A stretch of 64,000 nucleotides of DNA from Aquimarina algiphila (GTDB lineage Bacteria; Bacteroidota; Bacteroidia; Flavobacteriales; Flavobacteriaceae). The DNA lies in contig NZ_VLNR01000028.1 in NCBI RefSeq assembly GCF_007489275.1, positions 1 to 64,000 on the forward strand. Direction: 5' to 3'. The first letter of the stretch is position 1. Each line of letters begins with the position of its first letter. Shown here piece by piece: positions 14,244 to 62,948 of this stretch. Made by a program: the position numbers and the translations under genes. The notes under the pieces were generated by a model. It was not told where the DNA came from. It saw only the letters and a program-made list of their open reading frames with translations, and searched no databases.

Positions 14244-15224
14244 TCACCCGATCTTAAAAGCAGTAAGAAAAAAATTCTGGTTACTCCCTACCGTCCAATA
14301 AGGAAGTAATACTTCACTATCACTAGGAGAATTTAAAAACCATTGTCGGAGAGTATTAACTCTCCTATCAAAATTCAAGGGATCGACTTCAGCTATAGTC
14401 ATTAAGGTTCTCGATGTGCTGAAATTATAATTCAGTCTATAAAATTTAGACACTTCAAAAGAAGCTGTTCCTCCTATATCTTGTGTCCACCTTCTATATC
14501 TTGATCCACCACCATACATCTGATTTGCCGTACCGTTAATTACAAATAGATGAGATTCTGCTTCGAATAATGGTTCTGAACCCAAGTTACCAACTTCAAT
14601 GCCAATTCCTCCAATTCCAAAAAGACTGATCCCTTCTATTTCGCTCAGGGTAAATACAATACTAAAAGAAAGATCGTCACATCTTTTCCAAGGAAATGCT
14701 CTAAATTTTACAGCACTATTGAAATCTGAACTTCTATTAATACCCCATAACCCTTTTTCCAAGTTACGGTTGACAATTACTCCTGGACTAATTTCTAAAC
14801 CTAAATCAATTACTGATGTTGTTCTTAAATCTACCCAAACAGGATTAATTACTACAATTGTCTCATTTCCAGTATCGCCAGAATTTAGATTTCCATTTCG
14901 TACTATCAAATTAAATCTCCCTTCTGTATCTCCTGCAAATACTACAGCTTCTAATAAGGTTGGATCAATAAACTTTACCTGACTAATAACTACAACAAGA
15001 CTCCCTGCTCTTTTAAACTCTGAACTATCTATTTCCGCACCAGTATCTATAGTTACATTTGGAGTAAAGTGATATCCTTTAATTTGTACCTTTCGTATTC
15101 CTTTTACACGCATTCTAGCACCACATACTTCGGTTATGAATGGTGCTAAACCACTTGTACTTCCCTCGGCACTATCATTTGTTTGTGTTCCTCTTACAAA
15201 GCGTTGTGTTCTAATTGCTCTCAT
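14244..15224 (-). CDS. Beta-rich putative virion surface protein with IPT/TIG-like domain
   Basis: This 326-residue protein has no signal peptide or TM segment. Residues about 35-130 read as an immunoglobulin-like IPT/TIG fold (VQIKGYHFTPNVTIDTGAEI). The remainder (about 150-326) is rich in beta strands and aromatic residues (YRRWTQDIGGTASFEVSKFY) and looks like a lectin or adhesin-type sandwich. It is the last gene of the virion operon, next to another beta-rich protein. Such terminal beta-sandwich proteins often serve as spikes or receptor-binding proteins. Assignment is by fold impression and position, without a recognised family. Confidence 0.55.
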   Translation of the reverse strand: MRAIRTQRFVRGTQTNDSAEGSTSGLAPFITEVCGARMRVKGIRKVQIKGYHFTPNVTIDTGAEIDSSEFKRAGSLVVVISQVKFIDPTLLEAVVFAGDTEGRFNLIVRNGNLNSGDTGNETIVVINPVWVDLRTTSVIDLGLEISPGVIVNRNLEKGLWGINRSSDFNSAVKFRAFPWKRCDDLSFSIVFTLSEIEGISLFGIGGIGIEVGNLGSEPLFEAESHLFVINGTANQMYGGGSRYRRWTQDIGGTASFEVSKFYRLNYNFSTSRTLMTIAEVDPLNFDRRVNTLRQWFLNSPSDSEVLLPYWTVGSNQNFFLTAFKIG

Positions 15225-15229
15225 AGTAT

Positions 15230-15763
15230 TTACTCAAATTGTGCCGTTTTATAAAATTGAATTCTTAAAATGGGTGTTCCATTTTTTTGTACTCCGATTA
15301 CCCTAAATTTCTTTAGATTTTCAGATCCTACCAATTCAAATATATCTTGGTTTCCTAATCCAAACCCTGAATTGATGTTAGGGTTTGATCCGTTTTCTTT
15401 AAACCTTAGTACAGCTGACGAATTCGTAATGGGTAGTTCCAACACAGGTATAGGCGGTGTACGTTTCTTTTTATTTGATCTAGCAATAATTGATACAGTT
15501 TCATCTGGGTCTGGATCTGTAATAACATTAACAACTCCCTGTTCTACCATCATAGTTGCCGATACAGCTTCTTCAGGTACTTCTAATGGAATGATCCTAC
15601 CAAAAGGAAGTGGAATATCCTGATAGCCTTTATTATCCTGATCTATAGGTACAAGCCCAACTTCTTTGGCATTGATTAATACTAATTCCTCCAGATAATT
15701 GAGGATTGTTGCCGTATTTCTTCTTTTTGGATATGTCTGTTTCTGTATTCGATCTCTTAACAT
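15230..15763 (-). CDS. Hypothetical virion-like protein
   Basis: This 177-residue protein has a basic N-terminus (LRDRIQKQTYPKRRN), an acidic linker (ITDPDPDETVS) and a beta-rich C-terminal half (about 105-177). It ends five bases before the IPT/TIG-like gene begins, so the two are coupled and may form a spike complex. No TM segment, signal or catalytic motif is visible. Confidence 0.55.
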   Translation of the reverse strand: MLRDRIQKQTYPKRRNTATILNYLEELVLINAKEVGLVPIDQDNKGYQDIPLPFGRIIPLEVPEEAVSATMMVEQGVVNVITDPDPDETVSIIARSNKKKRTPPIPVLELPITNSSAVLRFKENGSNPNINSGFGLGNQDIFELVGSENLKKFRVIGVQKNGTPILRIQFYKTAQFE

Positions 15764-15774
15764 AACTATTCTTT

Positions 15775-16323
15775 TTATACAAAAGGATTAATCGGTGGTT
15801 TCGTTCCTGAAGGATAACCCCAAGCTACATATTGCTTTTTTGAACTATCATTATCCAGATGAACAAAGGTTCTACCCACTCCAATACGTTTGAACCCAAC
15901 TAATTTTGCAGCTACTACTATCTTATTTCGAATAGCCTTAGTAGGTGCTTTAATATCCGCAGCTTGACATTTTGGTATTTTATGGGATGAATTAGAAACC
16001 CCACCTACTTTAGCATTCCAATATGATGATCTTGCACCGGAGTTAATCATTTCGAAAATGGGTAGTTTGGTAACTTTAGCCAATTTTTGAAGCATTTTAA
16101 TGAATTCTTTATCCATACATCTGCCAGATCCTTGAATATCGGGGCTATCAAATTTGGTAAGATCAACTTTAGGTTTTGATTTTAGTCTAGATAAAGTAAT
16201 AGCTCCTATAATTACTATAGAAGCAGCACCTATACCTAACCATATATGTGTTCTATCCTTTTCCACCACAATTACATTGTTTCTTCTCTTTCTCCCTTTT
16301 ATTACGGTCACGAATAGCAACAC
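15775..16323 (-). CDS. Membrane-anchored M15-like peptidoglycan peptidase
   Basis: This protein of up to 182 residues has one TM helix (about 30-47) followed by an M15-type (D-Ala-D-Ala carboxypeptidase-like) domain. The zinc-site pattern is visible as His in SSHKIPKCQ, Asp in AADI, and the late His in FVHLD. Residues RSSYWNAKVGGVSNSSH match the usual substrate-loop region. It would cut peptide stems of the cell wall. The anchored form fits a virion or periplasmic enzyme better than a free endolysin. The 5' end is uncertain: the ATG at 16323 overlaps a small upstream gene, and a GTG about 57 bases downstream would remove the overlap while keeping the TM helix. Confidence 0.7.
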   Translation of the reverse strand: MLLFVTVIKGRKRRNNVIVVEKDRTHIWLGIGAASIVIIGAITLSRLKSKPKVDLTKFDSPDIQGSGRCMDKEFIKMLQKLAKVTKLPIFEMINSGARSSYWNAKVGGVSNSSHKIPKCQAADIKAPTKAIRNKIVVAAKLVGFKRIGVGRTFVHLDNDSSKKQYVAWGYPSGTKPPINPFV

Positions 16324-16399
16324 ATTTTAATACTATACTTACTGCTAAAAAAGCTCCGAAAAGTACGTTCATCGTTATATTCCCTTTATCTGCTTTCAT
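16253..16399 (-). CDS. Small single-TM protein with basic tail
   Basis: This 48-residue frame begins MKADKGNITMNVLFGAFLAV and has one hydrophobic helix (about 10-28). A strongly charged tail (RDRNKREKEKK) and a terminal CNCGGKG follow. Its start overlaps the stop of the preceding coiled-coil gene as ATGA, a classic coupling, which is the main evidence that it is real. It also overlaps the annotated start of the M15-like gene. It matches the topology shared by many small proteins of this operon. The function is unknown. Confidence 0.5.
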   Translation of the reverse strand: MKADKGNITMNVLFGAFLAVSIVLKCVAIRDRNKREKEKKQCNCGGKG

Positions 16400-16713
16400 T
16401 TTTTCTCTTGGTATTTCTTCAACTTATGTTCAAGTTCTTCTATATAAACTTCAAGATCATTAATACGCTCACGTTGTTTAGTGATCGTCTGCTTCATCTC
16501 TTTGTTATTTTTTTCCAATCCCTGAATACGCTCCTCCATTTTATCACTCCAAGCGATCCAATTTCCAATCACTTTTTCATTGGTTTCGGCATTTAGGTTT
16601 CGCAATTCAGCTTTCTTCAACTTCTTTTGTAATCCAAAATGTAATAACGCTTCTAACGCCTTCCAAAAAGCTGAAGCTCCAATAAATATCCCTGCTAACT
16701 TTAAATATTCCAT
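16396..16713 (-). CDS. TM plus coiled-coil protein
   Basis: This 105-residue protein has a short hydrophobic N-terminal helix (about 5-22), then a long charged coiled coil (about 45-105) with heptad repeats (MEERIQGLEKNNKEMKQTI). This is the layout of phage inner-membrane spanins and of membrane-anchored structural rods. It lies between the glucosaminidase and M15-like genes, supporting a role in lysis or wall penetration. The stop overlaps the next small gene as ATGA. Confidence 0.6.
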   Translation of the reverse strand: MEYLKLAGIFIGASAFWKALEALLHFGLQKKLKKAELRNLNAETNEKVIGNWIAWSDKMEERIQGLEKNNKEMKQTITKQRERINDLEVYIEELEHKLKKYQEKK

Positions 16714-16720
16714 ATACTTT

Positions 16721-17353
16721 TTACTTTGTATTACTTTTTACTACTGCAATAATTATTGCAATGACGCTTATCCCCATAATTGCCATTGGAAGCACAATGC
16801 TCCTTTCTTTTTTATCTAATTTCTTCAGAACAATAATCTGCTCAACTTCCTTCATTATTCTTTTGATCTTACTGGCATAATTGGGATCTGTAGCGTATCC
16901 AGCTTTGGCTACTTCTTCAGCGAATCGATACGGGTCTTTTTTAAACCGCATCGCGTAGCTATATCTCCTATTTTTAAATAACAAGCCAGCCCAATCTATA
17001 AATGAGAAAAAAGGATTAGGGTATGCCCTAAACACATCTTTTATTCTATACTTCCATTTTCCATTGGATTGTCGAATTGGATAGCCTGGATAAATAAAAG
17101 GGAAGTTGCGATTCGGACTAGAGCTATATTCAGTAGTAGTAATTAACTGGCTGTAGCCCTGCGACCAACCTCCGTAATTTCTTCCAGATCCCTTTTTGAT
17201 TCCAAACATCATATTTCCCTTTGCAGATTTCCCCCAACCAGATTCTAAAGCGCTTTGCGCCAATGCAAACAAAATGGGTACTCCAGATTTCTCAGAAGCC
17301 TTCTTTGCATAAGGATAATAACGAATTACAAATTGTTCTTTTTTTGTTGCCAT
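16721..17353 (-). CDS. Glucosaminidase with C-terminal TM anchor
   Basis: This 210-residue protein belongs to the FlgJ/glucosaminidase-like glycoside hydrolases that cut peptidoglycan glycan strands. The catalytic Glu37 sits in AQSALESGWGKSA, followed by the family motif GNMMFGIK. Later motifs (FRAYPNPFFSFIDWAGLL, YAKAGYATDPNYASKI-like end) complete the domain by about residue 170. A C-terminal hydrophobic helix (about 187-206, ending VKSNTK) is unusual for a soluble endolysin and would tether it. It could act as endolysin or as a virion-membrane enzyme for entry. Confidence 0.85.
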   Translation of the reverse strand: MATKKEQFVIRYYPYAKKASEKSGVPILFALAQSALESGWGKSAKGNMMFGIKKGSGRNYGGWSQGYSQLITTTEYSSSPNRNFPFIYPGYPIRQSNGKWKYRIKDVFRAYPNPFFSFIDWAGLLFKNRRYSYAMRFKKDPYRFAEEVAKAGYATDPNYASKIKRIMKEVEQIIVLKKLDKKERSIVLPMAIMGISVIAIIIAVVKSNTK

Positions 17354-17364
17354 CCCTCATTTCT

Positions 17365-18150
17365 TTATGGTACTGGTGGTACGTTAAAGACAGGATTTGC
17401 AGGAATTTCTAGGGGTAATTTTGCGATATATGGTGGAAAAATTATTAATACTTCATCAAGTGCTGAAGTAAATTCACCTTCTATAGCTAATACTCCAAAA
17501 CTACTCAACTGACAAAAGAAAAGGTTTCCTTCTGAAGAATGAGTAGTCCAAGCAATCACACTACCAAATTCTGCAAGTGCCGGCATTTTTAAAACCGTAC
17601 CACCACTTCCTGTACCACCTGTTTGTCCTGCACCTCCAACCCTTCGAAGTCTTATATTTAATGGTGTTACTAGATTCCCATTAACTACAGAATATCTATT
17701 TCTATTACTGGTGTAAAAAACACTATCTGAATTTATGTTTTCATCCAGTACTGAAAATATTTCTTCTCGGTTTTGACTAATGCCAGTACTTAACGGAATT
17801 CCTGTAAGAACCTGAAAACAATTCCCATCGAAAACCAATTTATAAACTAGGTTTGTTTTTAAATCATTGGCTACTAAAGGTGTCAATGACACACCGTTAA
17901 ATTTCTTTAATGGAATAGCTCCCTGCTCATCAATATTTAAAGTAGCAGCTTCGGTATTTGCACTATGAAATACGACTTCTACAGGTAAACCCGCTTCGTA
18001 CGGTCTTGTTAATTTAGGATCTAATGATAATTCATATACATTATCGTCTGCTCCAGTAGTAACTCCATAACCCCCTATACTGTTCTCCAAAGGAACGTTA
18101 CCATCTCCTCTTACATCTTCTAATCTAAAATCTGATTGATATCCTCCCAT
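17365..18150 (-). CDS. Protein with phage tail-fibre repeat motif
   Basis: This 261-residue protein has, at about residues 35-110, the repeat seen in many phage fibres: YELSLDPKLTRPYEAGLPVE, then HSANTEAATLNIDEQGAIPL and LVYKLVFDGNCFQVL. A glycine-rich hinge (GGAGQTGGTGSGGT, about 170-185) precedes a compact C-terminal domain that may bind receptor. No tail genes accompany it, so it is likely a vertex spike or fibre of a non-tailed particle. It is flanked by lysis-type genes. Confidence is good for the fibre motif and lower for its exact place in a particle. Confidence 0.7.
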   Translation of the reverse strand: MGGYQSDFRLEDVRGDGNVPLENSIGGYGVTTGADDNVYELSLDPKLTRPYEAGLPVEVVFHSANTEAATLNIDEQGAIPLKKFNGVSLTPLVANDLKTNLVYKLVFDGNCFQVLTGIPLSTGISQNREEIFSVLDENINSDSVFYTSNRNRYSVVNGNLVTPLNIRLRRVGGAGQTGGTGSGGTVLKMPALAEFGSVIAWTTHSSEGNLFFCQLSSFGVLAIEGEFTSALDEVLIIFPPYIAKLPLEIPANPVFNVPPVP

Positions 18151-18157
18151 TTCTTAC

Positions 18158-18577
18158 TTATTTACTAATTATTAATGTTCCAAGTGCTACCAGACTTATC
18201 CCTAATAGTATTTTATGTAGCTTACTTCTTTTGATCTTTTTCTCTTTTCGTTTGATAGTTTCCTCCAATAGCATAATGGTTCTATCATTATTATTTACCA
18301 CCATTGCGTAATTCTCTAATTGGTCTGACTGAAAAGAGATAATACTATCTTTCTTTTGGGTAACTAGTTCAAACCTTTTAATATTCAAGGATAAATTAGT
18401 CACCAACGAATCATTGTATTTCCCAAGTTCCAACAACTTGGCTATCTCACGTGATTGAGCAATCGTAAAGCAATAGTGTGGAAGCTTATCAATTTCCCTT
18501 ACTTTTGGTGTCAAATCTTGCGAAATACTGATAAAGCTCATCATCAGTAAAATCATCAATAGCACTAACTTTTTCAT
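18158..18577 (-). CDS. Spanin-like protein with signal peptide, coiled coil and C-terminal TM
   Basis: This 139-residue protein has a cleavable-type hydrophobic N-terminus (to about residue 20, SISQ), a coiled coil (about 50-115) and a C-terminal TM helix (about 120-137). Its first 89 bases overlap the end of the next upstream gene in another frame, as in Rz/Rz1 spanin pairs. It has no lipobox, so it is not a classical outer spanin; with two membrane-embedded ends it resembles a unimolecular spanin. A role in disrupting the outer membrane during lysis is inferred from architecture and neighbours. Confidence 0.55.
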   Translation of the reverse strand: MKKLVLLMILLMMSFISISQDLTPKVREIDKLPHYCFTIAQSREIAKLLELGKYNDSLVTNLSLNIKRFELVTQKKDSIISFQSDQLENYAMVVNNNDRTIMLLEETIKRKEKKIKRSKLHKILLGISLVALGTLIISK

Positions 18578-18842
18578 CTTTCCTTTCCTTTAATTTTTCT
18601 AATACACGGCTGTCTACATTAATCAATACCGTTAGGCTATCTGCCATCGATTCCAAAATCTCAACCTTACTATCTAATAATTCATTAGTTTGAATAAGAG
18701 TCTTATTTTCTCGCTTCAATTCTTCAATCTCAATCTTCTGTATCTGATCGATTACATCATCCTCTGCAGGAATGATAAAAAAGAGTGCAATGACTACCCC
18801 TGCAATTGCTATAAGGGGTAGTATCCATTTATACTGTTTCAT
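18489..18842 (-). CDS. Inner-membrane spanin-like protein (Rz-type)
   Basis: This 117-residue protein has one N-terminal TM helix (about 7-26) and a long periplasmic coiled coil (about 30-95; EIEELKRENKTLIQTNELLD). This is the topology of the inner spanin Rz. It follows a three-TM holin-like gene with a 4-base overlap and overlaps the next gene by 89 bases. This arrangement is typical of lysis cassettes. I saw no sequence signature that fixes the family. Confidence 0.6.
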   Translation of the reverse strand: MKQYKWILPLIAIAGVVIALFFIIPAEDDVIDQIQKIEIEELKRENKTLIQTNELLDSKVEILESMADSLTVLINVDSRVLEKLKERKDEKVSAIDDFTDDELYQYFARFDTKSKGN

Positions 18843-19183
18843 AAAAGATCATCTTTTGGAGTATCTACTTTCTTCTTTGGCATAAATCTTTCAACAACAA
18901 CCTGAAGGAGAAACTTATAAAATGCAGTTGCAAAAAGAAAAGAGATAAAAAGACATAGTACTTTTGACAGATCATATCCTCGAATAAAGAAGACAATCAC
19001 GGCATATATAAATGCTATGATTAATACCTGGTATCTGTTCCTTAGTTTAATCCCTAATCCTTTACCTATAAATTCAGGTATTTTATAATAGTTTATTACA
19101 TATGTAATAAGCATAAAAGAGAAGATATATGCCCAATCAAGGGAATTCAAAAAACTTGTAAACTGTTCCAATACGATTTCCAT
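18839..19183 (-). CDS. Holin-like membrane protein
   Basis: This 114-residue protein has three hydrophobic helices at about 17-36, 48-70 and 75-97 and a charged C-terminal tail (MPKKKVDTPKDDLL). This size and topology are those of class I holins, which permeabilise the inner membrane at the end of infection. Its place directly before the spanin-like pair supports this. It could instead be a virion membrane protein, given the many such proteins in the operon. Confidence 0.6.
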   Translation of the reverse strand: MEIVLEQFTSFLNSLDWAYIFSFMLITYVINYYKIPEFIGKGLGIKLRNRYQVLIIAFIYAVIVFFIRGYDLSKVLCLFISFLFATAFYKFLLQVVVERFMPKKKVDTPKDDLL

Positions 19184-19195
19184 AACTTTTTAGAT

Positions 19196-19432
19196 TTAAA
19201 GGGTTTGTTTAATTTTTATTACTTCTTGTTCTATAGCTGCTAATTGTGTGTTTGGAAATAGGTTTTTAACCGTATTAGCCACAACAACAATGGCTACACC
19301 AGCTAACAGCATTCCTATTATGATTTTTAACAAGGTCTGATTGGTAAGTGTAATTGTCACTTCTGTTTTCAATCCATCCTTATCTACTAATGCATCTAAC
19401 AGACCTCCTAGATTTCTTTTTTTGCGTACCAT
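19196..19432 (-). CDS. Small single-TM protein
   Basis: This 78-residue protein has a basic N-terminus (MVRKKRNLGG), an amphipathic stretch and one strong TM helix at about 34-57 (IIIGMLLAGVAIVVVANTV). A short helical tail ends IEQEVIKIKQTL. The gene is packed between the holin-like and peptidoglycan-binding genes. It fits a virion membrane or lysis accessory protein, and no family is recognised. Confidence 0.55.
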   Translation of the reverse strand: MVRKKRNLGGLLDALVDKDGLKTEVTITLTNQTLLKIIIGMLLAGVAIVVVANTVKNLFPNTQLAAIEQEVIKIKQTL

Positions 19433-19437
19433 GTATC

Positions 19438-19866
19438 TTAAGCTTTAATAAGTTCGTGAATCGGAGTTCCCATCTGATGTTTATCATAAGTAACTCTATC
19501 AATGCCATCCGTCTTGAAAATCTTCTTTACCAATTCTTCAGTTTGCTGATCAAACACTTTGGTAATAGTTCCTTTCCAACCGTGGTGTCTTAATAGCCAA
19601 ATCTGTAGCCGTTCAACCTCCTTGCCCTTACTTCCTTTAGTCAATAACCAAGGTTTCTTTGCTTCCTGTTTTGGTTTTATGTAATTTGCTTCTGACGTTA
19701 CTTTTGTAATGGGTTCAGGTTCTATGATTTCCTCTATATTTTGTCTTTTCTGTAATACAGGCGCTTCCTTTTCAGGTTTCTTTTTTTGACCTTTTATAAG
19801 GTATACCGCTAAAATGCTTACACCAATGCCAACCCCTGCTATAATCAAATCATTTGTACGTATCAT
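19438..19866 (-). CDS. Membrane-anchored peptidoglycan-binding protein 1
   Basis: This 142-residue protein has an N-terminal TM helix (about 7-24), a Pro/Glu/Lys linker, and a C-terminal PG_binding_1-type three-helix domain (about 72-140). That domain shows the family pattern of KGSKGKEVERLQIWLLRHHG and a later FDQQTEELVKKIF. It would hold a particle or enzyme against the murein. It overlaps the upstream gene's stop by 4 bases, and that gene has the same plan, suggesting a related pair. Confidence 0.7.
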   Translation of the reverse strand: MIRTNDLIIAGVGIGVSILAVYLIKGQKKKPEKEAPVLQKRQNIEEIIEPEPITKVTSEANYIKPKQEAKKPWLLTKGSKGKEVERLQIWLLRHHGWKGTITKVFDQQTEELVKKIFKTDGIDRVTYDKHQMGTPIHELIKA

Positions 19867-20387
19867 CGTTTTATTGTTTTAATTGCCGTTCTCATTCCAT
19901 CGATATCCTGCTTGCTAAATGATGTTCTTTGTAAATGCTTCTTGGCTGCTTTATTTGTTTTATTTCCAAACATTCCGTCAACGCCATCTCTGCTTCTTCC
20001 AGAACGTCCCAAATCTGCCTTATAAATTTTACTTAAATAGGATTGCAATATTTTTACGTCCCTATGACAAGTACCATATTGCAGAGGATATTTGTTACTG
20101 CTGCATCTAAACCTTGTTGGTCTTCTTGTTGTAGTGGATCTTCCTGTTGTAGTTGATCTTCTTGTTGTAGTGGATCTTCTTGTTGTATTGTTTGCAATGG
20201 TACTTGCTATTTCTCGATCAAGATCTTCCGCTTCTCTTGGTAACATCTCTAATTTGCTTTTGCGCTTCTTATAGTACCAATACCCAATCCCTCCTAAAGC
20301 TAGGGATGTAACCCCAATAATGATCCATAGGGTCTTATCACTATTTCCAGTCTTCTTTCCTGTTGGCTTTTTATTCTTAATTTTCAT
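19863..20387 (-). CDS. Membrane-anchored peptidoglycan-binding protein 2 with TTRRS repeats
   Basis: This 174-residue protein has a basic start, one TM helix (about 22-39) and a dibasic stretch. A low-complexity hinge of hexamers follows (TRRSTT, TRRSTT, TGRSTT, TRRPTR; about 70-92). The C-terminal domain (about 100-165) resembles PG_binding_1: QYGTCHRDVKILQSYL, then DGVDGMFGNKTNKAAKKH. A cysteine pair (FRCSSNKY, GTCHRD) may form a disulphide. The hinge is encoded by an 18-base tandem repeat and may vary in length. It is likely a murein-contacting membrane protein of the particle. Confidence 0.65.
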   Translation of the reverse strand: MKIKNKKPTGKKTGNSDKTLWIIIGVTSLALGGIGYWYYKKRKSKLEMLPREAEDLDREIASTIANNTTRRSTTTRRSTTTGRSTTTRRPTRFRCSSNKYPLQYGTCHRDVKILQSYLSKIYKADLGRSGRSRDGVDGMFGNKTNKAAKKHLQRTSFSKQDIDGMRTAIKTIKR

Positions 20388-20427
20388 AATACTGTCCTTT
20401 ATTGAAAAAATTGTGATGTGTCATTTC

Positions 20428-20949
20428 TTAGGCTAATCTGTAATTTGGTAGTCTTCGTACAGGATCTTTGACAAGCTTTTTCATCTCGCTATCACTTAAG
20501 AAACTTCTAAGATGCTGCCACATATCTTTTTTGCCGTGATTAAAATAGAATGCTCTTGATAGACTAGCGACCTGTGTTTTATCTTGTAAGCTTCTAAATA
20601 CACGCTCTACTGCTTTTTCATCATCATTGAATACACCTTTGGCATTGTTCAATTCAATAGCATACTTTTTAGCAGCAGATTCAGACAATTCCTTGATACG
20701 TTTTCTTCCTAACCATTTTTTTACATCTTTGATATAATTCATATTAAAAGCTGCATTCCAATTCGGTTCTGTAACAGGTGTTGCTTTACCGCCACTTGTT
20801 ACCTTGATGGGTTTTCCTTTATTTCCCATTCCCATAAATGAAGTCTCTTTATTGGTTTTGCGTTTCTTTACAAAAAAGTAAATACCAACACCCAATCCAG
20901 CTACTCCTGCACCTCCAATTACCCACCACATTGTTTTCGTCATTTCCAT
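20428..20949 (-). CDS. TM protein with annexin-like helical domain, paralogue 1
   Basis: This 173-residue protein has a TM helix at about 8-27 followed by KKRK and a Gly/Lys linker. A helical C-terminal domain (about 85-173) has the pattern AKKYAIELNNAKG, VFRSLQDKTQVASLSRAFYF, LRSFLSDSEMKKLV, RRLPNYRLA. The next gene has the same domain behind a different TM segment, so this is a tandem duplicate. The Y-x(n)-G-x-x-L-x-x-x-L pattern recalls annexin-type repeats, but calcium-binding residues are not evident. It probably belongs to the particle membrane. Confidence 0.6.
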   Translation of the reverse strand: MEMTKTMWWVIGGAGVAGLGVGIYFFVKKRKTNKETSFMGMGNKGKPIKVTSGGKATPVTEPNWNAAFNMNYIKDVKKWLGRKRIKELSESAAKKYAIELNNAKGVFNDDEKAVERVFRSLQDKTQVASLSRAFYFNHGKKDMWQHLRSFLSDSEMKKLVKDPVRRLPNYRLA

Positions 20950-20959
20950 TGTTTTGCTT

Positions 20960-21454
20960 TTATACTGTTCTGTATTTTGGTAATCTTGAGATAATACCTA
21001 ATACTGTTTTGATTTCACTTCTATCAAAGTGATCCTTTAATTGATCTCTAAGGTTTAATTTGTGTTCTCTTTGATATGCTTTAGCGACCTGAGATACTTG
21101 CACTTTATCCTTTAGGTTCCTGAATACGGCATATATATTTTCCTCTAAGTCACCACCTCGATACCAAGGTCTAAAGCCTTTATGAATTTCATTGGCATAT
21201 CGTGTTGCCGTAGACTTCTTTAATACTATTATTTTTCCTGAACGAGAATTAAAAACCCTGTCTACGTATTTAACATCTAAAGCTGCTGAACTCTCTAGTC
21301 CTTTACTGTCTGGATTCAAACTTTTACTTAATTCACCCAATAGACTACTAGCAAGTTTATTTCGCTTTTTATTACGCAAAGTCATATAAGTAGTACCAAT
21401 CAATATCAGTCCTACTGTGCCTGCGGTGATCTGTAATCCAACTACTTTTTTCAT
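20960..21454 (-). CDS. TM protein with annexin-like helical domain, paralogue 2
   Basis: This 164-residue protein has one TM helix (about 8-25) and a C-terminal domain paralogous to its neighbour: ATRYANEIHKGF, VFRNLKDKVQVSQVAKAYQR, LKDHFDRSEIKTVLG, SRLPKYRTV. The N-terminal thirds are unrelated apart from both holding a TM helix and basic flank. The duplication implies that two copies with different roles, or a heteromer, are needed. The stop/start region overlaps the next gene by 4 bases. Confidence 0.6.
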   Translation of the reverse strand: MKKVVGLQITAGTVGLILIGTTYMTLRNKKRNKLASSLLGELSKSLNPDSKGLESSAALDVKYVDRVFNSRSGKIIVLKKSTATRYANEIHKGFRPWYRGGDLEENIYAVFRNLKDKVQVSQVAKAYQREHKLNLRDQLKDHFDRSEIKTVLGIISRLPKYRTV

Positions 21455-21909
21455 TTGTTCAAAAATTTAATCCCTCCTCCAATAGATCTACCCATCGGTG
21501 TAAGCATCGCAAGGTCAGTTGCATCCGCTTTCTTTGCAGTATTCCACAAAATCAGCCCTATAACCGCTAATAATAATGTCAAGGTTACAGGCACGGCTAT
21601 TGAAACAACTTTTGACAAATTCTTTCCTAACCCCATAAAATTGCTGCCTATTTCAGATGCATCTGCTATGGCTCTTGTTGCTGCACTTGATACGTCAATT
21701 TTATTCTTCTTTAGCCACTTGTTGAAATCTCCATTTGTGGTACAACTGGATGATCCGTTTGTCTTCCAAGTCACCAACCAAATAGTACGGGCATTTGTCG
21801 TTCCAACGGTAGCTTTTAACGAATTGAAATAACCTACCCATAGTTCACAAGGATCGTTAGATTCTGGCACTATATATGACTTGTTCTGTATGTTAATTTC
21901 AATGGGCAT
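21451..21909 (-). CDS. TM protein with cysteine-containing N-terminal domain
   Basis: This 152-residue protein has an N-terminal domain of about 75 residues with three cysteines (NDPCELWVGYF, SSSCTTNGDF) and aromatic residues. A small-residue helix and a strong TM helix (about 103-123, VTLTLLLAVIGLILW) follow, then a short tail with MLTPMGRSIGGG. It overlaps the next gene by 4 bases. It could be an ectodomain-bearing virion membrane protein. I recognise no family. Confidence 0.55.
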   Translation of the reverse strand: MPIEINIQNKSYIVPESNDPCELWVGYFNSLKATVGTTNARTIWLVTWKTNGSSSCTTNGDFNKWLKKNKIDVSSAATRAIADASEIGSNFMGLGKNLSKVVSIAVPVTLTLLLAVIGLILWNTAKKADATDLAMLTPMGRSIGGGIKFLNK

Positions 21910-21919
21910 ACTATTTTAT

Positions 21920-22108
21920 TTATCTTCTTAAAATGTGATTTGATTGTGACTTGACTTCTCGTTTGGTTAACCCTAAATCTTCTAATGTTTCTATAAGCCT
22001 TTTCTTGACTTGTGCTTCTTTTCTATCAGCTTCTTTCTTGTCATACTTTTTGTAAATATGTCTACCAATAAGAAAACCCACGCCAAGTGCTAAAATGGTG
22101 TTCTTCAT
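21920..22108 (-). CDS. Small single-TM protein with charged helix
   Basis: This 62-residue protein has an N-terminal TM helix (about 4-16, ILALGVGFLIGRHIY) followed by a highly charged helix (KKYDKKEADRKEAQVKKR). It is squeezed between two other genes with 2-11 base gaps, and its topology matches the rest of the module. The function is unknown; a minor membrane protein of the particle is the likely reading. Confidence 0.5.
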   Translation of the reverse strand: MKNTILALGVGFLIGRHIYKKYDKKEADRKEAQVKKRLIETLEDLGLTKREVKSQSNHILRR

Positions 22109-22110
22109 TG

Positions 22111-22614: not shown

Positions 22615-22652
22615 CTCTTGTCATTTTAAATGTTCATTTCTATTTTGTGCTA

Positions 22653-52689: not shown

Positions 52690-52693
52690 AAGC

Positions 52694-56600: not shown

Positions 56601-58012
56601 CTTGAGAAATAAGGAGCTTGTTTTACACCTAAGCCTTTAGGTTTATTATCCATTCTCTCCCCTTGAGCTTTTGCATCTGCATGAATTAATGCCAGTACAG
56701 GAGCGACATATTCTTCTTCAAATCGAACCACTTCATTCATCAAATTGATAATCCGATTTACACTTGCTCTATTCTTACTTCGGCTTGGTTCTTCATCTAA
56801 GGTGATATACTCAACTTTAATACCTTCGTTGGAACGCTGCCTTCTGATAAGTTGACCACTTTCTGCAAGGTTAGATGCTACAATTTCTTGAAGGGCTAAT
56901 CCTCCTGTACGCATAGAGGTTACAAATGCGCCATCCTTTAGTCCTGTTTCGGAAATAGCTGTCTTTTTTCCATAGAAGGGCATTACTTCTGGATACTTGG
57001 CAAAAGTTGCGCTTAAAAAACAACAAGAATATGTTTTAGGAAGTACCCTACGCATCCAATTTCCTATGATAGAATCAAATCCTCCAGCACTATGCGATTC
57101 ATCCAAAATGAACACTACTTTTTTATAGCGTTTACTTCCTTCGATTCCACTCTCACATATACTTTCTATCCAAGAACGTTTATAATAACTAGCAGATTGA
57201 ACCTGACTATAGGTTGTAAAAACCATATCATATCCGCTTGGTAAATAATCTATATTCTCATAAATGGTTACCGTTGGTGTAGCTTCAGGGTCAGGTAATT
57301 TTTTACCCATTCTTTTATGCCATTCTATCGATTCTAAACTTTCAGTAGCTAGAGTCTTAGAAGTAGTAAGTAATTCCTCTTGAGCTTTGCCCGATAATGG
57401 TGTAAATACTACATTTCCATCTGCATCTTTTACTTTTGCTCCTGAATCAGAACTAGAATTGACAATAAAAGGTTGGATATCGTCAAAACCTATATTCTTT
57501 AAATCCCGATACATATCTGTAAATAAACTAGGGCTTTTGGTAAAGAAAATTGGTAAATACCCTTGCATTACCGCGTGACGAATAACGGCTGCTGCTTGCC
57601 TGCCTTTTCCAATTCCCGTTTGATCTCCAATGATAATTCCTTGTTGGCGTTCAAACTGTTTAAGGTATAACGCTACTGCATCAACCTGTTCCGCAGCAAA
57701 AGCTTTCCATAAGGTTGCTGTAGATATATATTTTAACTCATTCCGAACATAATTGTCAATGTTCCCTTTTTCCTTTACAATACGGTTCAGTGCCTTTTGA
57801 ACTTCAAAAGCCATATTTCTAGGGATGAGAGTATCCATTTTAAAACTTGCATTTGATTTTGGTACATATGGAACAAGGGCGGTCTGATCCGCTGCCAGTT
57901 TTGCTACTTGGGCTGCATCCTGAGTGAATTGATCCTTTTCTTCCTGTAATTCGATATTCTCCATAATTCTTTTTTTAAAGGGCTTTCTTCTACTTTTTGC
58001 AGTACCCAGCAA
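53684..58012 (-). CDS. Strawberry-notch-type SF2 helicase/ATPase
   Basis: This very large SF2 protein has Walker A in IIGDQTGIGKGRQAA (about 124-138), a DExH box VFILDESHSAGG (about 300-311) and LSATFAK. The C-terminal helicase lobe has SGSTGQSAHAS and the arginine motif QKRGRINRTGQVNLPEYYYI (about 700-720), with insertions typical of SBNO-like proteins on phages and plasmids. The long C-terminal third (about 900-1440) is of unknown fold. The ATG at 57964 (MENIELQEEK) is the likelier start, since a 9-bp hairpin at 58008-58042 covers the longer start. It pairs with the upstream methyltransferase. Confidence 0.85.
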   Translation of the reverse strand: MLGTAKSRRKPFKKRIMENIELQEEKDQFTQDAAQVAKLAADQTALVPYVPKSNASFKMDTLIPRNMAFEVQKALNRIVKEKGNIDNYVRNELKYISTATLWKAFAAEQVDAVALYLKQFERQQGIIIGDQTGIGKGRQAAAVIRHAVMQGYLPIFFTKSPSLFTDMYRDLKNIGFDDIQPFIVNSSSDSGAKVKDADGNVVFTPLSGKAQEELLTTSKTLATESLESIEWHKRMGKKLPDPEATPTVTIYENIDYLPSGYDMVFTTYSQVQSASYYKRSWIESICESGIEGSKRYKKVVFILDESHSAGGFDSIIGNWMRRVLPKTYSCCFLSATFAKYPEVMPFYGKKTAISETGLKDGAFVTSMRTGGLALQEIVASNLAESGQLIRRQRSNEGIKVEYITLDEEPSRSKNRASVNRIINLMNEVVRFEEEYVAPVLALIHADAKAQGERMDNKPKGLGVKQAPYFSRVFNIVDQMLFALKVEEVAKKTVSLLREDKKVVIAFKSTMGAFLKDLNLSSGDVIPKEELDFVRTLIKGLDSIFYYSYTAIDGKKSRQRIAVEELSRKGQEEYTRIKKAMLLESSGLSISPIDQLIQLIENEKKPSYLGGHDDEHFKVVEVTGRNQKVRYNGDDVVVSSFRSDSEKSFRLFNSGEYDVLLINQSGSTGQSAHASEDFADQRQRAMVIHQFELDINIEVQKRGRINRTGQVNLPEYYYITSDIPTERRLMTMLKAKLKSLDANTTGSQNTNDDTLKSADFLNKYGDKVAWQWINENPEMMSKLGHPTYHRVTDRKTGTKYYERNDGKEGAIRQLTGRAGLLLVEDQDNLYNVLLERYDHQIKLEKQQGTYDLETEFLPLDAEIKKRYLFKQGNGGNTPFGKDTVREVSIVNNLKRPLTKQDVENRITKALDGRKPQQVRAELVNDINEKFPLLIEERREKRMEVVHKLREELKDLPDIGSGKDDDENEKIANDREKLQELIEEKLSAVNEYLQKLEYVKKQIVKYVGYFDIGQVLKIPFLNPTKEPSWGMFLGISLGTSAKNPYTYGNIQLRFAVADSRRLISYSLQPEEHAYISLIYTQSSDISEEERKQIPIEWNELIKKASSKREQRHILTENIVAASQAIGGENKLVKYNTKTGIIKNGILMDKEFGKDGVNKALLPISEAFNIIVGLSTDEFFSDQKDQLRFKRIGENYLQVYIHKVENYKMAIDPKLRELIRRAEGQTEDELPDFVQNGGEMTGVLHLKNLSAFLKQLNTYGLQFLGKAKELEDWEVENQKDWDRNTKQSEGNYSYELGRPYGQGSNPITGFKEYKEPGDTKYTFGTVSYTRPLSDKEKYNYSLIPIFKNVVIPYRAWKQAISGTPVEKEFETIVEEASKQALYEAKDTLGFFITNNPHEDGNPEFVFGRYNEEDLGRTAYEDMIEEINAIDEVLDQLRLYHSLQTA

Positions 58013-58042
58013 GTGACTCCATCTTCACCATCATCACTTGCT
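58008..58042 (-). promoter_or_regulatory. Hairpin before strawberry-notch gene
   Basis: AGCAAGTGA and TCACTTGCT form a perfect 9-bp stem with a 17-base loop, in the only sizeable gap between the two giant genes. There is no T-run, so it is more likely an mRNA processing or translation element than a terminator. It argues for the internal start at 57964. Confidence 0.45.
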
Positions 58043-58062
58043 ATGGGACTACTTATCTATGA

Positions 58063-58485
58063 TTACACGCTTTCAAATCTTGATAACACTTCTAAGTATC
58101 TACGTAAAGTGGTATCTGCATACATTTGGACAGCATCTTCTTTCTCCATTCCACCATACATTAATGAATCGTCTGGTACGGTATCGTCCAGATTACTCCA
58201 GTTTTCTTTAAGTGTCCACATAGCACTTTGCATTTTATCGTGGTACATTAGGAAATTTGCAATTTCATCCACCGTTCTACTATCCGTATAGACGGTTTCT
58301 AGGTATTCCTCAATAAGAGCAATTGGATCGTCTCCTTCAGCCATTGACCACGCTATTAAGTTGTGTAATCGGATAAAGATTCCCGTTTCGTGATCTTCAA
58401 AATTTTCAAAGGGTATTGGATTGCTGACCATAAAAAGGGTAGCACTTTCATCCGACGGCATTAATTGATTATTTAAAAATATCAT
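58063..58485 (-). CDS. Acidic hypothetical protein between giant genes
   Basis: This 140-residue acidic protein is helical in its C-terminal half (VDEIANFLMYHDKMQSAMWT, then DAVQMYADTTLRRYLEVLSR). It overlaps the end of the methyltransferase gene by 4 bases. No TM, signal or known motif is seen. It may be a partner or inhibitor of one of the two giant enzymes. Confidence 0.55.
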   Translation of the reverse strand: MIFLNNQLMPSDESATLFMVSNPIPFENFEDHETGIFIRLHNLIAWSMAEGDDPIALIEEYLETVYTDSRTVDEIANFLMYHDKMQSAMWTLKENWSNLDDTVPDDSLMYGGMEKEDAVQMYADTTLRRYLEVLSRFESV

Positions 58486-61400
58486 AGTCCTAATTCTATT
58501 TTAAGTTGTTGTATAATTATGTCAATGAGTTTTGGAGTATTAATGTGGGATTCGATACGTTCCCATAATTCAGGAAAACTTTCCACCATTTGCTCTATCA
58601 AAGGGTTTTCACTCTTTGTTGGAGCAATACCTTCTGGTGTTTCTTTTCTTCCATTAATAAGGATGAGCATTGTCTTGGTAACTGCGCCCTGCTTATTGTA
58701 CAGTTTATAGCTGTTCATATTGATAATATCATCGACATGATAATAGCGGTACAGCCAGTTGAAAAAAGGTTTGTATTTTTCTATATATCCATCCTGACCG
58801 AAATACACATGTCCCATAATGATGATAGCTGCCTTTCCTGTACCTTTTAAAGTATGTAAGGCGAGTCCTGCCATAAAATGCTCTAAGCGCATATGCTGTG
58901 CTACCCCAATTTGATTATTAAAGTATTTTTGTGTCCATCGTTCTTTATCAAACTTTGAATCGTCCCAACTGGCAAATGGTGGATTTGTAACCATTACATC
59001 AAAGGAGCGAGCCAGTTCTTCTGGAAAAGGTTCAGCAGCATTTAGGTGAGTAATCGTCTGAAACCTTTGTAACTCCAGAGAATATCTCCTACTCTTATCA
59101 ATTTCATTGACGTGGGTTTTTTCTGGATCTGCACCAAGTACCAACAAGCCATTTCCAGCACTAGGTTCAAAAATGCGTGTCGCATCAGACATTTGAGTAT
59201 ATTCAGCTACCATTGCACCTATAGGACAAGGTGTGGAATACTGCTTAAACAGTTCCTTGCTACTATCTGAATAAGCATAGGTAGGCTGCACGGTATTCCA
59301 AAACTCAACCATCTGCCCCAAGCGTTGTTCAAATGGAATAGGAAGGTTATAGATTTGCTTATACCATAAAAGCCAACTAAGCTCAACGGCTTCCCATAAA
59401 GCACCTAAATTGGGAGCGCCAGCTTCTTCTTTGACTGCTTCAATTTTCTTTTTGCTTAATCGTTCATTCTTGATATAGTGATCGTGCATAATTGCCACCA
59501 CTTTATCCAAATAATCAGGGTTCCACGACTTCTTTTCTTCGTCATTTTCAGCAGTCGCAAAGAAATCATCAATTAAAATTCTAGCTATTTTCCCTATAGG
59601 TTCATCAGGATAATTCTCCGCTATTCTACCTCCAAATAAATTGTTCAAAATAAAGTCACGAAAGTTGGCTATGTCACCCATATCAATGATATAGCCATAA
59701 TCTTTCGCTCTCATTAAAAACTCAAAAAACAACTCATCACGAAATACTTTATCCTCTTTGACTACGATCCACTCCAAATCTTCAGATTCTCTTTTTAAAG
59801 AAGTGATTCGGTCTAGCCTATGTATTCTGCTTAACTTACTTTTTCTATCATTTTTCCCTTCTAATGCCTTAATCTCCTTTTCAAGTATGTTTATCCAATG
59901 ATGTGACTCTTTATCTATCTTCTTATCCAGTTTGATTTTAGTAAGCTCATATCGGTAGTTCAATTCAAACACAGATACGTTTTCAATAAATGCCTGTTTG
60001 CCTGAAAAACCTATTGTAAATCCAAGTGAAGCAAATTTTTTCCGAATTTGCTCTGCTTCACTTGATTTTATAAAAAAGAATTCTTCTACGAATGATTTTT
60101 CAATTTGCTTTGGTATTTCTGACTCTTTAGCAGTTTCCTTTTTCTTCTGATCTTCTATATATCCTTCGATCAGTTCTTTGGAGTTATCAAGATCTTCAAT
60201 TTTATATTCGATGTCCCGATATAGTTCTTTGTCTTCTTTTTTGGATTTTGGCTTACCTGTTCTTGGATTGGTATGTACTAGTTGCTGTTTCTTAAAATCG
60301 GATTTTTCTTCTTGAATAATTTCCAGCGCTCTATCTAAATCTGCAATGGGTCGATACATATCGGCTGCATGCCACCAAGATTGTGTTTCCCTATCTTCAT
60401 CTATGATGTTCTGTAGTGGATAAACTCCTCTATAACCTGTATTGACATTTACATAAGGATAATTAGGATCTGTAGGAAAACCTAATTCTTCAAATAACTT
60501 TTCACCTCGTTTTTCCCACTCTCGAAGCATAGCAGATCTTGTTACCGAAAATCCATATTGATTTGGATGACCCATTTGAACCAATTCAAATAATTCTTTT
60601 GCATTCAATTCCGAAAGATTGTCATTCGAAGCTTCTAACAAGTACGGAGCGATTTCTTGAATCTTTTTAGCATCTTTTACATATAATCCAGAATTAAATA
60701 GCGCTATGACTCTGTGAGGAGTTAAGACATTGGGAATCGCTGTTCCATATCGTGTAATATCTGTGGTAACTGGATGCTTTTTTTCTATTTCAGTATTCTC
60801 TACATTTTCTTCAGGTACAACAACTTTATCAGGATTGGATAAGATATATCGAATCGCTTTTTTTAGTTTAGTCATCGACATTGTACTGCCACCATATATT
60901 ACACCTTCTTTTAAAGGCTTATGACCTGAAATAGCAATGCGATTCTTCTTAAGAATTTGAAAGGAGATTTCATCTCGATCAGAAGTGATTACAAGCCCGT
61001 GCGGTTCTGATTCATCTGGATAATAATTACGTTTGATACATTCAGGTCTTGAATTAATAAACTTTTCAAAATCCGTTACCGTTTTACCATCCAGTTTTGT
61101 CCAGGCTTGCTCTAATATATAACCAGAGCTGTGGGGAACTGTGAAAGGTGTGTATCCTAATGCTGCTGCATTTGAAAGGATCAAGTCTAAAAAAGTATTC
61201 CTGACAGCTTCTGGTTCTATATCATTTATCCAGTCTTTTTGATCATTTATAGTTTGTGTTACACTTTCTATAAATGTTACGTTATTTTCAATTGGCAAAG
61301 CTTCTTCTAGTTCTAGTCGAAAGGTGGCTATTATGGTTTCTGTTTCTCCTTCAGTATCAATCTCTAAATCAGTAAGCTTTTCAATCATCGATTGAACCGT

Positions 61401-62948
61401 AGTACGCTTTGAACCCGAATGTTTCGCATTAGTTTCTTCTACTTCTACTGATTTGTCTTTCCCTAATTCTACTTCTTCTATTGAAAGTTCTATTCCTTGA
61501 CCAGTAGCAAACTCTTTTAGAGCTAACAAAGCAGATTGAACGGCTTTAAGCTTTTCCTTAGCCTTTATAGTGGTTGCTATAATTAATTCTGTACTTAAGT
61601 CTTTAGCAATCAATTCCAATGGACGCTGGATCGCTTCTTTCTTTGAATTATATCTAGTACTTCCTCTTTTCGGTCTGAATTGATAATTACTTCCCGATCC
61701 AATTCGATTAAAAAATTCCAAACCATTCAAATAATAGTCTTCTTCATCCTGAACTATCGTAATAGATGCTTCCACCCTTACAGATTCAGGAAATGGAATT
61801 TCCAATACTTCTAATCGTTCTCCTGCGGTTTCTGGTGTATATACTCCTTCCTCATTGGTTAGAGATTTTGATTCTACGGGTTTAGAAAAATCATATTCAT
61901 TAAATGAGATGTAATCTAGTCCAAGTTCTCCTCTGGAATCAGTTTGTCCTTCTATCAAATTAACCAGATCCAACACTTGCTCTCGAAAACCTTCAATTCC
62001 AATAAATGACGATTTCCCATTACTGGTTAATGGATTATTGGCTGTCACTATTTTTAGGTTATCTCCTTCCCATAAATAACCTGACCTTCCTCCGTCAACC
62101 ATTCCACCCTTTGTAAAATCGCCTTTATTTCCTATACTACTTAACACTTTTTTAAAAGCAGCTTTGCTCCTAAAATCAGTGCCATCAAATCCAAACTGGA
62201 AGTCTTCGGATTTTAAAAGTTCAGGATGATCCTGCAAAACAGGTTCAGGAACTTTCTTACCATTTCTTAAAGCTGTTAATACTGCAATTTTATGTTCGTG
62301 TTTTTCTTCTGCTAGAAAATCTGGATCAAGTAGCTGATCATTAGAAATAGATTTCCCCGAAACCTCAAATAGATATGTAGCTTTTGTTTTAAGCCATACA
62401 AATTCCTCTTTTGGTGTATCTGTATTTTTTACTTCTTCTTGATTACTTTCAGAAATTCCTGTGATAATTCTTCCTTCATCGAATGCGTTTCTTGCTCTTT
62501 CTTTTAAATTCCTAGCAGTAACTTTAAGCCCTTTAAATTTATCTCCTAACTGAGATTTTAAAAACCGTTTTGCAATGTCCTCGGCTGAAACCCTGAAATC
62601 TTCAAAAACAACATAATCTTTATCTTTTATAACCTGATCTTCATTTTCGATCGAAGCTGTCACCAAACTAAAAAGTTTGTGATCAATGTTACCTCTTACA
62701 ACTTCATACGATGGTTCAATTTTTATGGATATAAGATCTTTACTTTCTTTGTTAGCATTTTCTAAAGCACTTGTATACTTATCAAAAGAAGGACGAACCC
62801 CACGTATATACCAAACACCTTTGTTTCGATTTGCATTTTTAAATCCAATTGAAATAAGATATTTTTTTAAATCCGTATTAGATAATTCAGGATCAAATTC
62901 AAGTTGAATTCCTTTGGGAGTTTCGTTATATGATTTTGTTATTCTCAT
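58482..62948 (-). CDS. Giant N6-adenine DNA methyltransferase fusion
   Basis: This 1488-residue protein carries a class I N6-adenine methyltransferase domain near its C-terminus: FEPSAGNGLLVLGA (about 1257, SAM-binding motif I) and MVTNPPFASWDD (about 1320, catalytic NPPF). The preceding 1200 residues are unassigned apart from helical, charged segments and scattered beta-rich domains. Such long proteins pair with strawberry-notch helicases on phages and conjugative elements. They may modify element DNA against restriction or act in replication. It is the first gene of the operon, behind the tandem-repeat array. Confidence 0.85.
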   Translation of the reverse strand: MRITKSYNETPKGIQLEFDPELSNTDLKKYLISIGFKNANRNKGVWYIRGVRPSFDKYTSALENANKESKDLISIKIEPSYEVVRGNIDHKLFSLVTASIENEDQVIKDKDYVVFEDFRVSAEDIAKRFLKSQLGDKFKGLKVTARNLKERARNAFDEGRIITGISESNQEEVKNTDTPKEEFVWLKTKATYLFEVSGKSISNDQLLDPDFLAEEKHEHKIAVLTALRNGKKVPEPVLQDHPELLKSEDFQFGFDGTDFRSKAAFKKVLSSIGNKGDFTKGGMVDGGRSGYLWEGDNLKIVTANNPLTSNGKSSFIGIEGFREQVLDLVNLIEGQTDSRGELGLDYISFNEYDFSKPVESKSLTNEEGVYTPETAGERLEVLEIPFPESVRVEASITIVQDEEDYYLNGLEFFNRIGSGSNYQFRPKRGSTRYNSKKEAIQRPLELIAKDLSTELIIATTIKAKEKLKAVQSALLALKEFATGQGIELSIEEVELGKDKSVEVEETNAKHSGSKRTTVQSMIEKLTDLEIDTEGETETIIATFRLELEEALPIENNVTFIESVTQTINDQKDWINDIEPEAVRNTFLDLILSNAAALGYTPFTVPHSSGYILEQAWTKLDGKTVTDFEKFINSRPECIKRNYYPDESEPHGLVITSDRDEISFQILKKNRIAISGHKPLKEGVIYGGSTMSMTKLKKAIRYILSNPDKVVVPEENVENTEIEKKHPVTTDITRYGTAIPNVLTPHRVIALFNSGLYVKDAKKIQEIAPYLLEASNDNLSELNAKELFELVQMGHPNQYGFSVTRSAMLREWEKRGEKLFEELGFPTDPNYPYVNVNTGYRGVYPLQNIIDEDRETQSWWHAADMYRPIADLDRALEIIQEEKSDFKKQQLVHTNPRTGKPKSKKEDKELYRDIEYKIEDLDNSKELIEGYIEDQKKKETAKESEIPKQIEKSFVEEFFFIKSSEAEQIRKKFASLGFTIGFSGKQAFIENVSVFELNYRYELTKIKLDKKIDKESHHWINILEKEIKALEGKNDRKSKLSRIHRLDRITSLKRESEDLEWIVVKEDKVFRDELFFEFLMRAKDYGYIIDMGDIANFRDFILNNLFGGRIAENYPDEPIGKIARILIDDFFATAENDEEKKSWNPDYLDKVVAIMHDHYIKNERLSKKKIEAVKEEAGAPNLGALWEAVELSWLLWYKQIYNLPIPFEQRLGQMVEFWNTVQPTYAYSDSSKELFKQYSTPCPIGAMVAEYTQMSDATRIFEPSAGNGLLVLGADPEKTHVNEIDKSRRYSLELQRFQTITHLNAAEPFPEELARSFDVMVTNPPFASWDDSKFDKERWTQKYFNNQIGVAQHMRLEHFMAGLALHTLKGTGKAAIIIMGHVYFGQDGYIEKYKPFFNWLYRYYHVDDIINMNSYKLYNKQGAVTKTMLILINGRKETPEGIAPTKSENPLIEQMVESFPELWERIESHINTPKLIDIIIQQLKIELGL

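Follow-up and report, generated by a model that had tools for sequence, protein, structure and literature searches.

A candidate lineage of large, tailless proviruses in Aquimarina and other Flavobacteriaceae

Which kind of mobile element would carry a packaging-type ATPase and an operon rich in membrane and lysis-like genes, and show none of the familiar genes of a tailed phage? The question is raised by the window studied here, the 64,000-nucleotide stretch at positions 1 to 64000 of contig C193 of Aquimarina algiphila (NZ_VLNR01000028.1; genome of 7.0 Mb in 271 contigs), for which the original prediction had proposed a large tailless, membrane-containing double-stranded DNA (dsDNA) virus or virus-plasmid. 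We consider it likely that the window is part of a temperate dsDNA virus, large, tailless, and probably containing a membrane, that sits at a tRNA gene of its host (tRNA-Met in Aquimarina) and represents a new lineage known from genes alone. The earlier idea is partly supported; its core has held and has gained a candidate capsid protein, homology of the packaging ATPase to viral ones, attachment (att) repeats, uninterrupted integration sites, and recent transfer between genera.

Two conserved gene modules

The element contains two minus-strand gene blocks. Module A consists of 27 open reading frames (ORFs) at 14244-29815, one fewer than first counted in this virion/lysis-like operon, and module B, the replication/packaging-like operon already recognized on the same strand, consists of 14 ORFs at 46260-62948, including an A32-type ATPase. 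The DNA between them is mostly plus-strand and differs in composition. A hydropathy scan predicted transmembrane (TM) segments in 16 of the 27 module A proteins, 14 with one segment and two with two (about 15 single-TM proteins had been proposed), versus 1 of 14 in module B; some N-terminal TM calls in module A could be signal peptides. Module A also encodes four murein-active proteins (an M15 peptidase, a glucosaminidase, a CHAP protein, and an amidase-type protein), and its largest product has 572 amino acids (aa).

We compared the 68 ORFs of the window by tblastn with stretches of 11 related loci from Aquimarina, other Flavobacteriaceae, and one other family. Both operons, whose gene order the original prediction had proposed to look for in flavobacterial relatives, were collinear in these loci. 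Module A matches ran unbroken, in order and on one strand in 11 of 11 loci, with all 27 ORFs matched in A. algicola, A. megaterium, and genome G1024, 25 in G1045, 24 in G1071, 22 in each of G010, G036, and G076, 21 in G138, 16 in G071, and 8 in G799, a genome from a different family within the order, whose contig stops inside the module. For module B, 13 or 14 of the 14 ORFs were matched in eight loci, 9 in G138, 4 in G071, and 3 in G010. The nine ORFs between the modules yielded no match or one in each of the 11 loci; we read this DNA as variable cargo. The 18 left-arm ORFs had 15 matches in A. algicola, 0 to 15 across Aquimarina, and 0 or 1 in the six non-Aquimarina loci. Throughout, each of five pairs of genome handles (G1008/G1018, G1009/G1030, G1010/G1058, G1011/G1045, and G1013/G1071) is treated as one genome on the grounds of identical coordinates.

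The gene for the candidate capsid protein described below was found in 20 of 66 Aquimarina genomes and in 8 of 299 genomes of the family, and the ATPase gene was found in 4 of 395 genomes of the order, the A. algiphila genome included each time. When 395 genomes were drawn from the phylum, the capsid profile matched in the A. algiphila genome only, once a false match in G379 (by inspection, an unrelated membrane protein) was removed. Two diverged capsid-gene copies per genome are present in A. latercula, A. algicola, and G138 (contigs C44 and C85). The capsid protein, the ATPase, and the conserved protein encoded at 24838-25593 had no relative in IMG/VR when searched as single sequences or alignments, with scans for short peptide patterns that can miss distant relatives. 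None of the three matched GenBank phages, and neither the capsid protein nor the ATPase matched plasmid records. Among the literature matches listed, with subscription papers mostly outside reach, no description of such an element was found; the 4.6-kb elements in the accessible text of PMC12324425 are a different thing. We lean, if only slightly, toward the view that the lineage is common in Aquimarina and occurs here and there in Flavobacteriaceae, and that virus collections lack it because it is unfamiliar to detection tools.

Capsid and packaging candidates

The candidate major capsid protein is the 300-aa product of 28639-29541, which is strongly conserved and has an acidic N terminus and an Arg-rich C terminus. 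Low-confidence models give it a single beta-sandwich (residues 88 to 224). Jelly-roll capsids are among the sandwiches that these models match, and about 31 of the 50 Foldseek matches listed were viral coat or vertex proteins. No Halopanivirales capsid appeared among the listed matches, which excludes nothing; hhalign found no similarity to VP16 and VP17 of Thermus phage P23-77, and the FLiP capsid protein did not match the capsid profile. We regard 28639-29541 as the likely capsid protein. It is under strong purifying selection. Over a 163-codon core, nonsynonymous divergence (dN) was 0.008 to 0.074 against a synonymous divergence (dS) of 0.74 to 2.2 in six pairs, and in a seventh pair dN was 0.151 with dS saturated.

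A paralogue of this protein is encoded at 23123-24841 and aligned with the capsid profile in hhalign (E = 4.8e-5; probability, 68). Here, a YVTN-type beta-propeller, identified by propeller Pfam families, interrupts the capsid domain after strand 2 and before strand 3, with capsid-domain alignment on either side. Single-barrel viruses without a tail have single-barrel pentons with diverse spikes, according to the accessible text of PMC6414509, and for this reason the paralogue may be a vertex or spike protein. Elsewhere, the propeller protein matched one unverified fecal contig, over the propeller only.

The element could instead be a conjugative or vesicle-borne element, with module A forming a cell-envelope machine that transfers DNA by means of an FtsK/HerA-like pump and makes no capsid, an interpretation that we hold to be unlikely. 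Murein hydrolases and abundant TM proteins would suit a transfer apparatus too, the viral collections searched gave no match, and strawberry-notch helicases of the kind encoded in module B occur on plasmids, where our search matched 482 records, 209 of them predicted to be conjugative. Against this stand the modeled capsid fold and its propeller-bearing paralogue, the lysis-type gene set of the operon, and the outcome of our family scans. PHROGs was run on all 27 module A and all 14 module B ORFs, and Pfam on 13 and 10 of them, respectively (the other 18 are each at most 259 aa long); 41 arm and cargo ORFs were scanned with both at an E value of 1e-5, the Pfam families numbering at least 25. 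No relaxase or type IV secretion family was found by Pfam in the 23 module ORFs, among the families listed for the 41 arm and cargo ORFs, or in 10 arm proteins of A. megaterium.

The packaging ATPase (47084-48103) had been recognized correctly and is of the A32/P9 kind, matching Zot (PF05707, 7.9e-5) and Pox_A32 (PF04665, 5.3e-4). Its closest named relatives are in Aquimarina. Compared as a single sequence, it resembled the ATPases of PRD1, PM2, and P23-77 weakly, but a profile of 12 homologues aligned with PRD1 P9, PM2 P9, and the P23-77 ATPase at an E value of 1.4e-6 (hhalign probability, 90) across Walker A, Walker B, and the next motif, pointing to homology.

The same homologues supply one argument for a tailed phage with a terminase, a portal, and an HK97 capsid diverged beyond recognition, since 8 of the 12 match the terminase-labeled phrog_2666 (best, 3.1e-7; the ATPase of the window itself has no match). 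This family, however, contains PRD1 P9, and it retrieves PRD1 P9, PM2 P9, and the P23-77 ATPase at 1e-67 to 3e-40, although at E values of up to 1 it also retrieves all 14 control genomes; terminase labels (phrog_2666 and phrog_13168) fall on ATPase homologues only. Tail-labeled matches at the domain level could be read the same way. They comprise 17365-18150 (phrog_4900, 3.7e-6), the glucosaminidase (phrog_326, 2e-8), and the CHAP protein, whose match to the baseplate hub/lysozyme family phrog_1259 covers the terminal lysozyme part of that family. The left arm adds VgrG-like and TssD-like genes, but elsewhere the former was matched in G036 and G1010 alone and the latter in A. algicola and G1024 alone, and after weighing them as tail genes we set them aside as cargo of the type VI secretion system (T6SS) kind. 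As originally noted, a tailed-phage set was not seen: PHROGs gave no portal, HK97 capsid, sheath, or tape measure family above noise in any module ORF or in the 41 arm and cargo ORFs, and a largest module A protein of 572 aa also speaks against a tailed phage, which we judge to be very improbable.

Integration, cargo, and remaining genes

To the right of module B, three Aquimarina loci carry regulatory genes and a recombinase, followed by a tRNA-Met gene. In A. algiphila, contig C239 opens with the right-arm genes that come next in sequence and continues with an integrase and an att fragment. A match to phrog_1 (6e-27) in 1 of 41 proteins of this genome is presumably the C239 copy; the A. megaterium integrase matched PF02899 (1.1e-5). 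Four of the six loci searched had att repeats, spaced 70.6 to 84.8 kb apart. The end of tRNA-Met is repeated over 47 bp 73.9 kb away in A. algicola, and 43 bp of tRNA-Met is repeated 73.8 kb away in a Bacteroidia metagenome-assembled genome, each beside a tyrosine-integrase gene. The G036 repeat, 17 bp of tRNA-Met at a distance of 70.6 kb, is a weak one (E = 0.001). The G076 repeat is 43 bp of tRNA-Arg, 84.8 kb away and beside a serine-recombinase-like gene, in a unit that includes some 36 kb of other genes. The unit originally drawn at 14244-62948 (about 49 kb, or 33 kb without cargo) was therefore too short. Synteny with A. algicola places the whole window inside the element; the left flank in A. 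algicola may belong to a neighboring insertion. In G1024, att-like copies flank an 82.5-kb unit holding both modules and an integrase. No second att copy was found for G071, nor within 315-335 kb of A. megaterium in the att search. An att-like fragment of A. megaterium at C1:267295-267347, 127 kb from tRNA-Met, could reflect a longer or nested insertion or the loss of a nearer att copy.

Going by the best match among those listed, 7 of 66 Aquimarina genomes have an unbroken left flank running through the whole tRNA. Six of them lack the capsid gene (G1020, G1034, G1038, G1063, G1073, and G1076), and the seventh, G1033, has it on another contig. Thus, an integrase, tRNA att repeats, and uninterrupted sites are all present, as in a temperate integrated element. 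The tRNA-Met gene itself looks like an integration hotspot, with several att-like tRNA fragments on one contig in several Aquimarina genomes (e.g., G1024 and G1032). The integration module appears to be exchangeable as well: beside tRNA-Arg, serine-recombinase-like genes replace the tyrosine integrase next to the same modules in G071 (L027, 17173-18720) and G076 (L057, 4176-5837).

The sequences further indicate that the element has moved between genera recently. The capsid loci of G010 and G051 share 97.6% DNA identity over 2,213 bp, against 75.5% for a gyrB-type gene (PF00204), and those of G010 and G076 share 91.3% against 78.1%; G036 and G051 deviate in the opposite direction (77.3% against 84.2%). 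A domesticated or decayed provirus, kept for its cargo or as a gene transfer agent, would suit the frequency in Aquimarina and the lack of capsid or ATPase matches in plasmid records, but we judge it very improbable, given the recent transfer between genera, the variety of recombinase types and of tRNA genes targeted, the presence of two capsid genes in certain genomes, and the lack of an internal stop in any capsid match listed from the family and Aquimarina searches.

If the element is a temperate tailless virus, as we favor, its cycle might run as follows. Upon induction, the integrase would excise the element, module B would replicate and package it, and module A would build the particle. 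The 300-aa protein, as single jelly-roll-like subunits, would build the shell over a membrane vesicle that bears the membrane proteins of module A, and its acidic arm may dock on the Arg-rich domains of those proteins that are anchored by their C termini. At the vertices, the propeller-bearing paralogue would act as a spike or bind the receptor. DNA would be driven in by the A32-type ATPase, and entry and lysis would fall to the four lysins and small TM proteins. The helicase of the strawberry-notch type and its methylase partner would probably accompany the DNA and shield it from restriction, while the defense, SOS-type, and T6SS-effector genes would be cargo in exchangeable slots. The tailless, membrane-containing bacterial viruses considered for comparison have genomes of 9 to 17 kb. 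A tailless lineage of more than 70 kb with such cargo would change ideas of the capacity of such capsids and bear on how cargo spreads among Bacteroidota, and the propeller-inserted paralogue would offer a concrete case of a spike evolved from a shell protein. Conserved proteins with no IMG/VR relative also point to a gap in virus detection. The claim is open to direct testing in named hosts, namely, strains M625 of A. algicola, XH134 of A. megaterium, and DSM 2041 of A. latercula.

The other module A genes are mainly candidates for lysis and virion-membrane functions. At the operon end, 14244-15224 may encode a receptor-binding protein, judging by its position and divergence (31% identity in G036 and 36% in A. 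megaterium); the fiber motif once seen in this operon found no backing here, as the protein has no Pfam or PHROGs match. The endolysin-like M15 peptidase (15775-16323; PF08291, 8.6e-10; phrog_894, 2.2e-12) and the glucosaminidase (16721-17353; PF01832, 3.1e-26) each also carry a TM segment, C-terminal in the latter, so the proposed joining of TM segments to peptidoglycan-active domains holds. The holin- and spanin-like genes fared less well: no holin family was matched in module A by PHROGs or Pfam, and the coiled-coil protein at 16396-16713 is a possible Rz-like spanin by a weak match only (phrog_739, E = 0.0017). Nine small ORFs at 18158-21909, eight of them predicted to have TM segments, are conserved in order and are candidates for virion-membrane or lysis proteins. 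They are followed by an amidase-like lysin (22111-22614; phrog_822, 3.7e-17; no Pfam match) and the CHAP-domain lysin (22653-23108; PF05257, 6.8e-8; phrog_1259, 1.1e-31), which is 70 to 71% identical in four non-Aquimarina loci. The conserved 24838-25593 protein has an HExxH motif, read from the sequence in a homologue alignment, and is a candidate metalloprotease or maturation protein; Pfam gave SprT-like at an E value of only 0.09. The block at 25598-28579 encodes three basic C-terminal-TM proteins starting at 25598, 26323, and 27127 (net charges, +14, +54, and +21), a near-neutral one at 27902-28579 (+1), and a small protein at 26112-26339 (-4). The first gene of the virion block, 29645-29815, encodes a 56-aa single-TM protein with homologues in G036 and both G138 loci.

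Module B includes a PAPS-reductase-like gene (46260-47078). Its other genes include a candidate origin binder with a weak DnaA-C-terminal-like helix-turn-helix (49011-49466; PF08299, E = 0.0016, below the family cutoff), a DUF7192 protein paired with an AAA_5 ATPase (51670-53650; Pfam), the strawberry-notch-type helicase of the DarB/polyvalent-protein kind (53684-58012; PF13871, 7.5e-27; PF13872, 8.3e-17; phrog_14770, 9e-42), and a large protein with a C-terminal adenine-methylase domain (58482-62948; PF07669, 3.3e-6; phrog_9133, 7e-14), the dyad partner of the helicase. On Persicobacter plasmid pPP10 (NZ_AP025302.1), a helicase 35% identical to this one adjoins a gene matching part of the methylase, and no module A protein was matched at an E value of 1e-3. 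In Bacteroides phage BS-TP4, a portal is annotated and the helicase forms part of a giant protein, which makes this phage a tailed-type carrier of the dyad. The A. algiphila genome also holds a second, diverged, partial module B at a contig end (L011, G000:C4:1-16913), with an ATPase 56% identical to that of the window.

The variable cargo (30011-46213) includes defense-type genes at 30011-44027, namely, a PDC-S49 candidate (PADLOC, 2.7e-39), a UvrD/GajB-like helicase, and a NACHT/STAND protein; other elements have different genes in the same slots. It also holds what reads as an SOS-mutagenesis-type cassette, with DnaE-like and ImuB/Pol IV-like polymerases (32071-36279) and, by reading of the sequence, a SRAP protein (44373-45137). 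The plus-strand left arm (1-14211) carries regulatory ORFs and, by Pfam and reading of the sequences, further cargo: a sigma-70-like gene (1493-2065), a VgrG-like gene (2686-3900), Rhs-like genes (6452-7507 and 8550-9491), and a TssD/Hcp gene (10753-11448), all but the VgrG-like gene by reading. Pfam listed TssD, Sigma70_r2, and Peptidase_M91 in one each of the 41 arm and cargo proteins, with the member not named. The VgrG-like, TssD/Hcp, Rhs-like, and M91-effector-like genes (2686-3900, 6452-7507, 8550-9491, and 10753-12937; partly by reading) look like a T6SS effector island within the element, and large Rhs-like genes are present in G1024 and G1045 too.

Comparison with known viruses

The helicase-methylase dyad recalls DarB of phage P1, in which an adenine methylase and a strawberry-notch SWI2/SNF2 ATPase are encoded close together; proteins of this kind are injected along with phage or plasmid DNA (both from the accessible text of PMC5512222). 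Here, the two are separate ORFs and not one fused protein, and no tailed-phage genes were recognized around them. Flavobacterium phage FLiP (Finnlakeviridae), which we take to be a tailless, membrane-containing flavobacterial phage with a single-stranded DNA genome, differs in its genome of 9.2 kb.

With PRD1, PM2, and other Varidnaviria, the element shares the packaging ATPase family, membrane proteins, and lytic enzymes. PRD1 and PM2, in contrast, have double jelly-roll capsids and genomes of 14.9 and 10.1 kb. No double jelly-roll protein was identified, the structure models being those of the conserved capsid candidate, with its one sandwich. What holds of the original placement among large viruses of the PRD1 kind is a large, tailless element of virion-like character that encodes numerous membrane proteins and an FtsK/HerA-type ATPase; membership of the PRD1 lineage is not shown.

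The Halopanivirales (Singelaviria, Helvetiavirae; Sphaerolipoviridae, Simuloviridae, and Matsushitaviridae, e.g., P23-77) have vertical single jelly-roll capsid proteins, to which the capsid candidate may correspond, and resemble the element in having a P9-type ATPase and a virion lysin. For the internal lipid membrane of this group, the TM segments in 16 of 27 module A proteins are an indirect hint. The ATPase of the window falls within the same P9/A32 family by the hhalign comparison above, and its PAPS-reductase-like neighbor is 35% identical to ORF 3 of P23-77. Genome size sets them apart: Halopanivirales genomes measure 16 to 31 kb (17 kb in P23-77 and, as far as the source consulted goes, 16 to 19 kb in Simuloviridae), whereas the integrated length between att repeats is 70.6 to 84.8 kb here. 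The membrane-containing, tailless Sphaerolipoviridae, at 28 to 31 kb in the accessible text of PMC12643093, also make the range of 10 to 18 kb first assumed for such viruses too narrow. Single jelly-roll tailless viruses are now placed in the realm Singelaviria, according to the accessible text of PMC12714852; we do not claim membership, because the capsid comparison is weak (low-confidence models and no VP16 or VP17 similarity) and the size does not fit. Unlike the Halopanivirales, the Aquimarina element combines one capsid candidate and a propeller-bearing paralogue with a large cargo.

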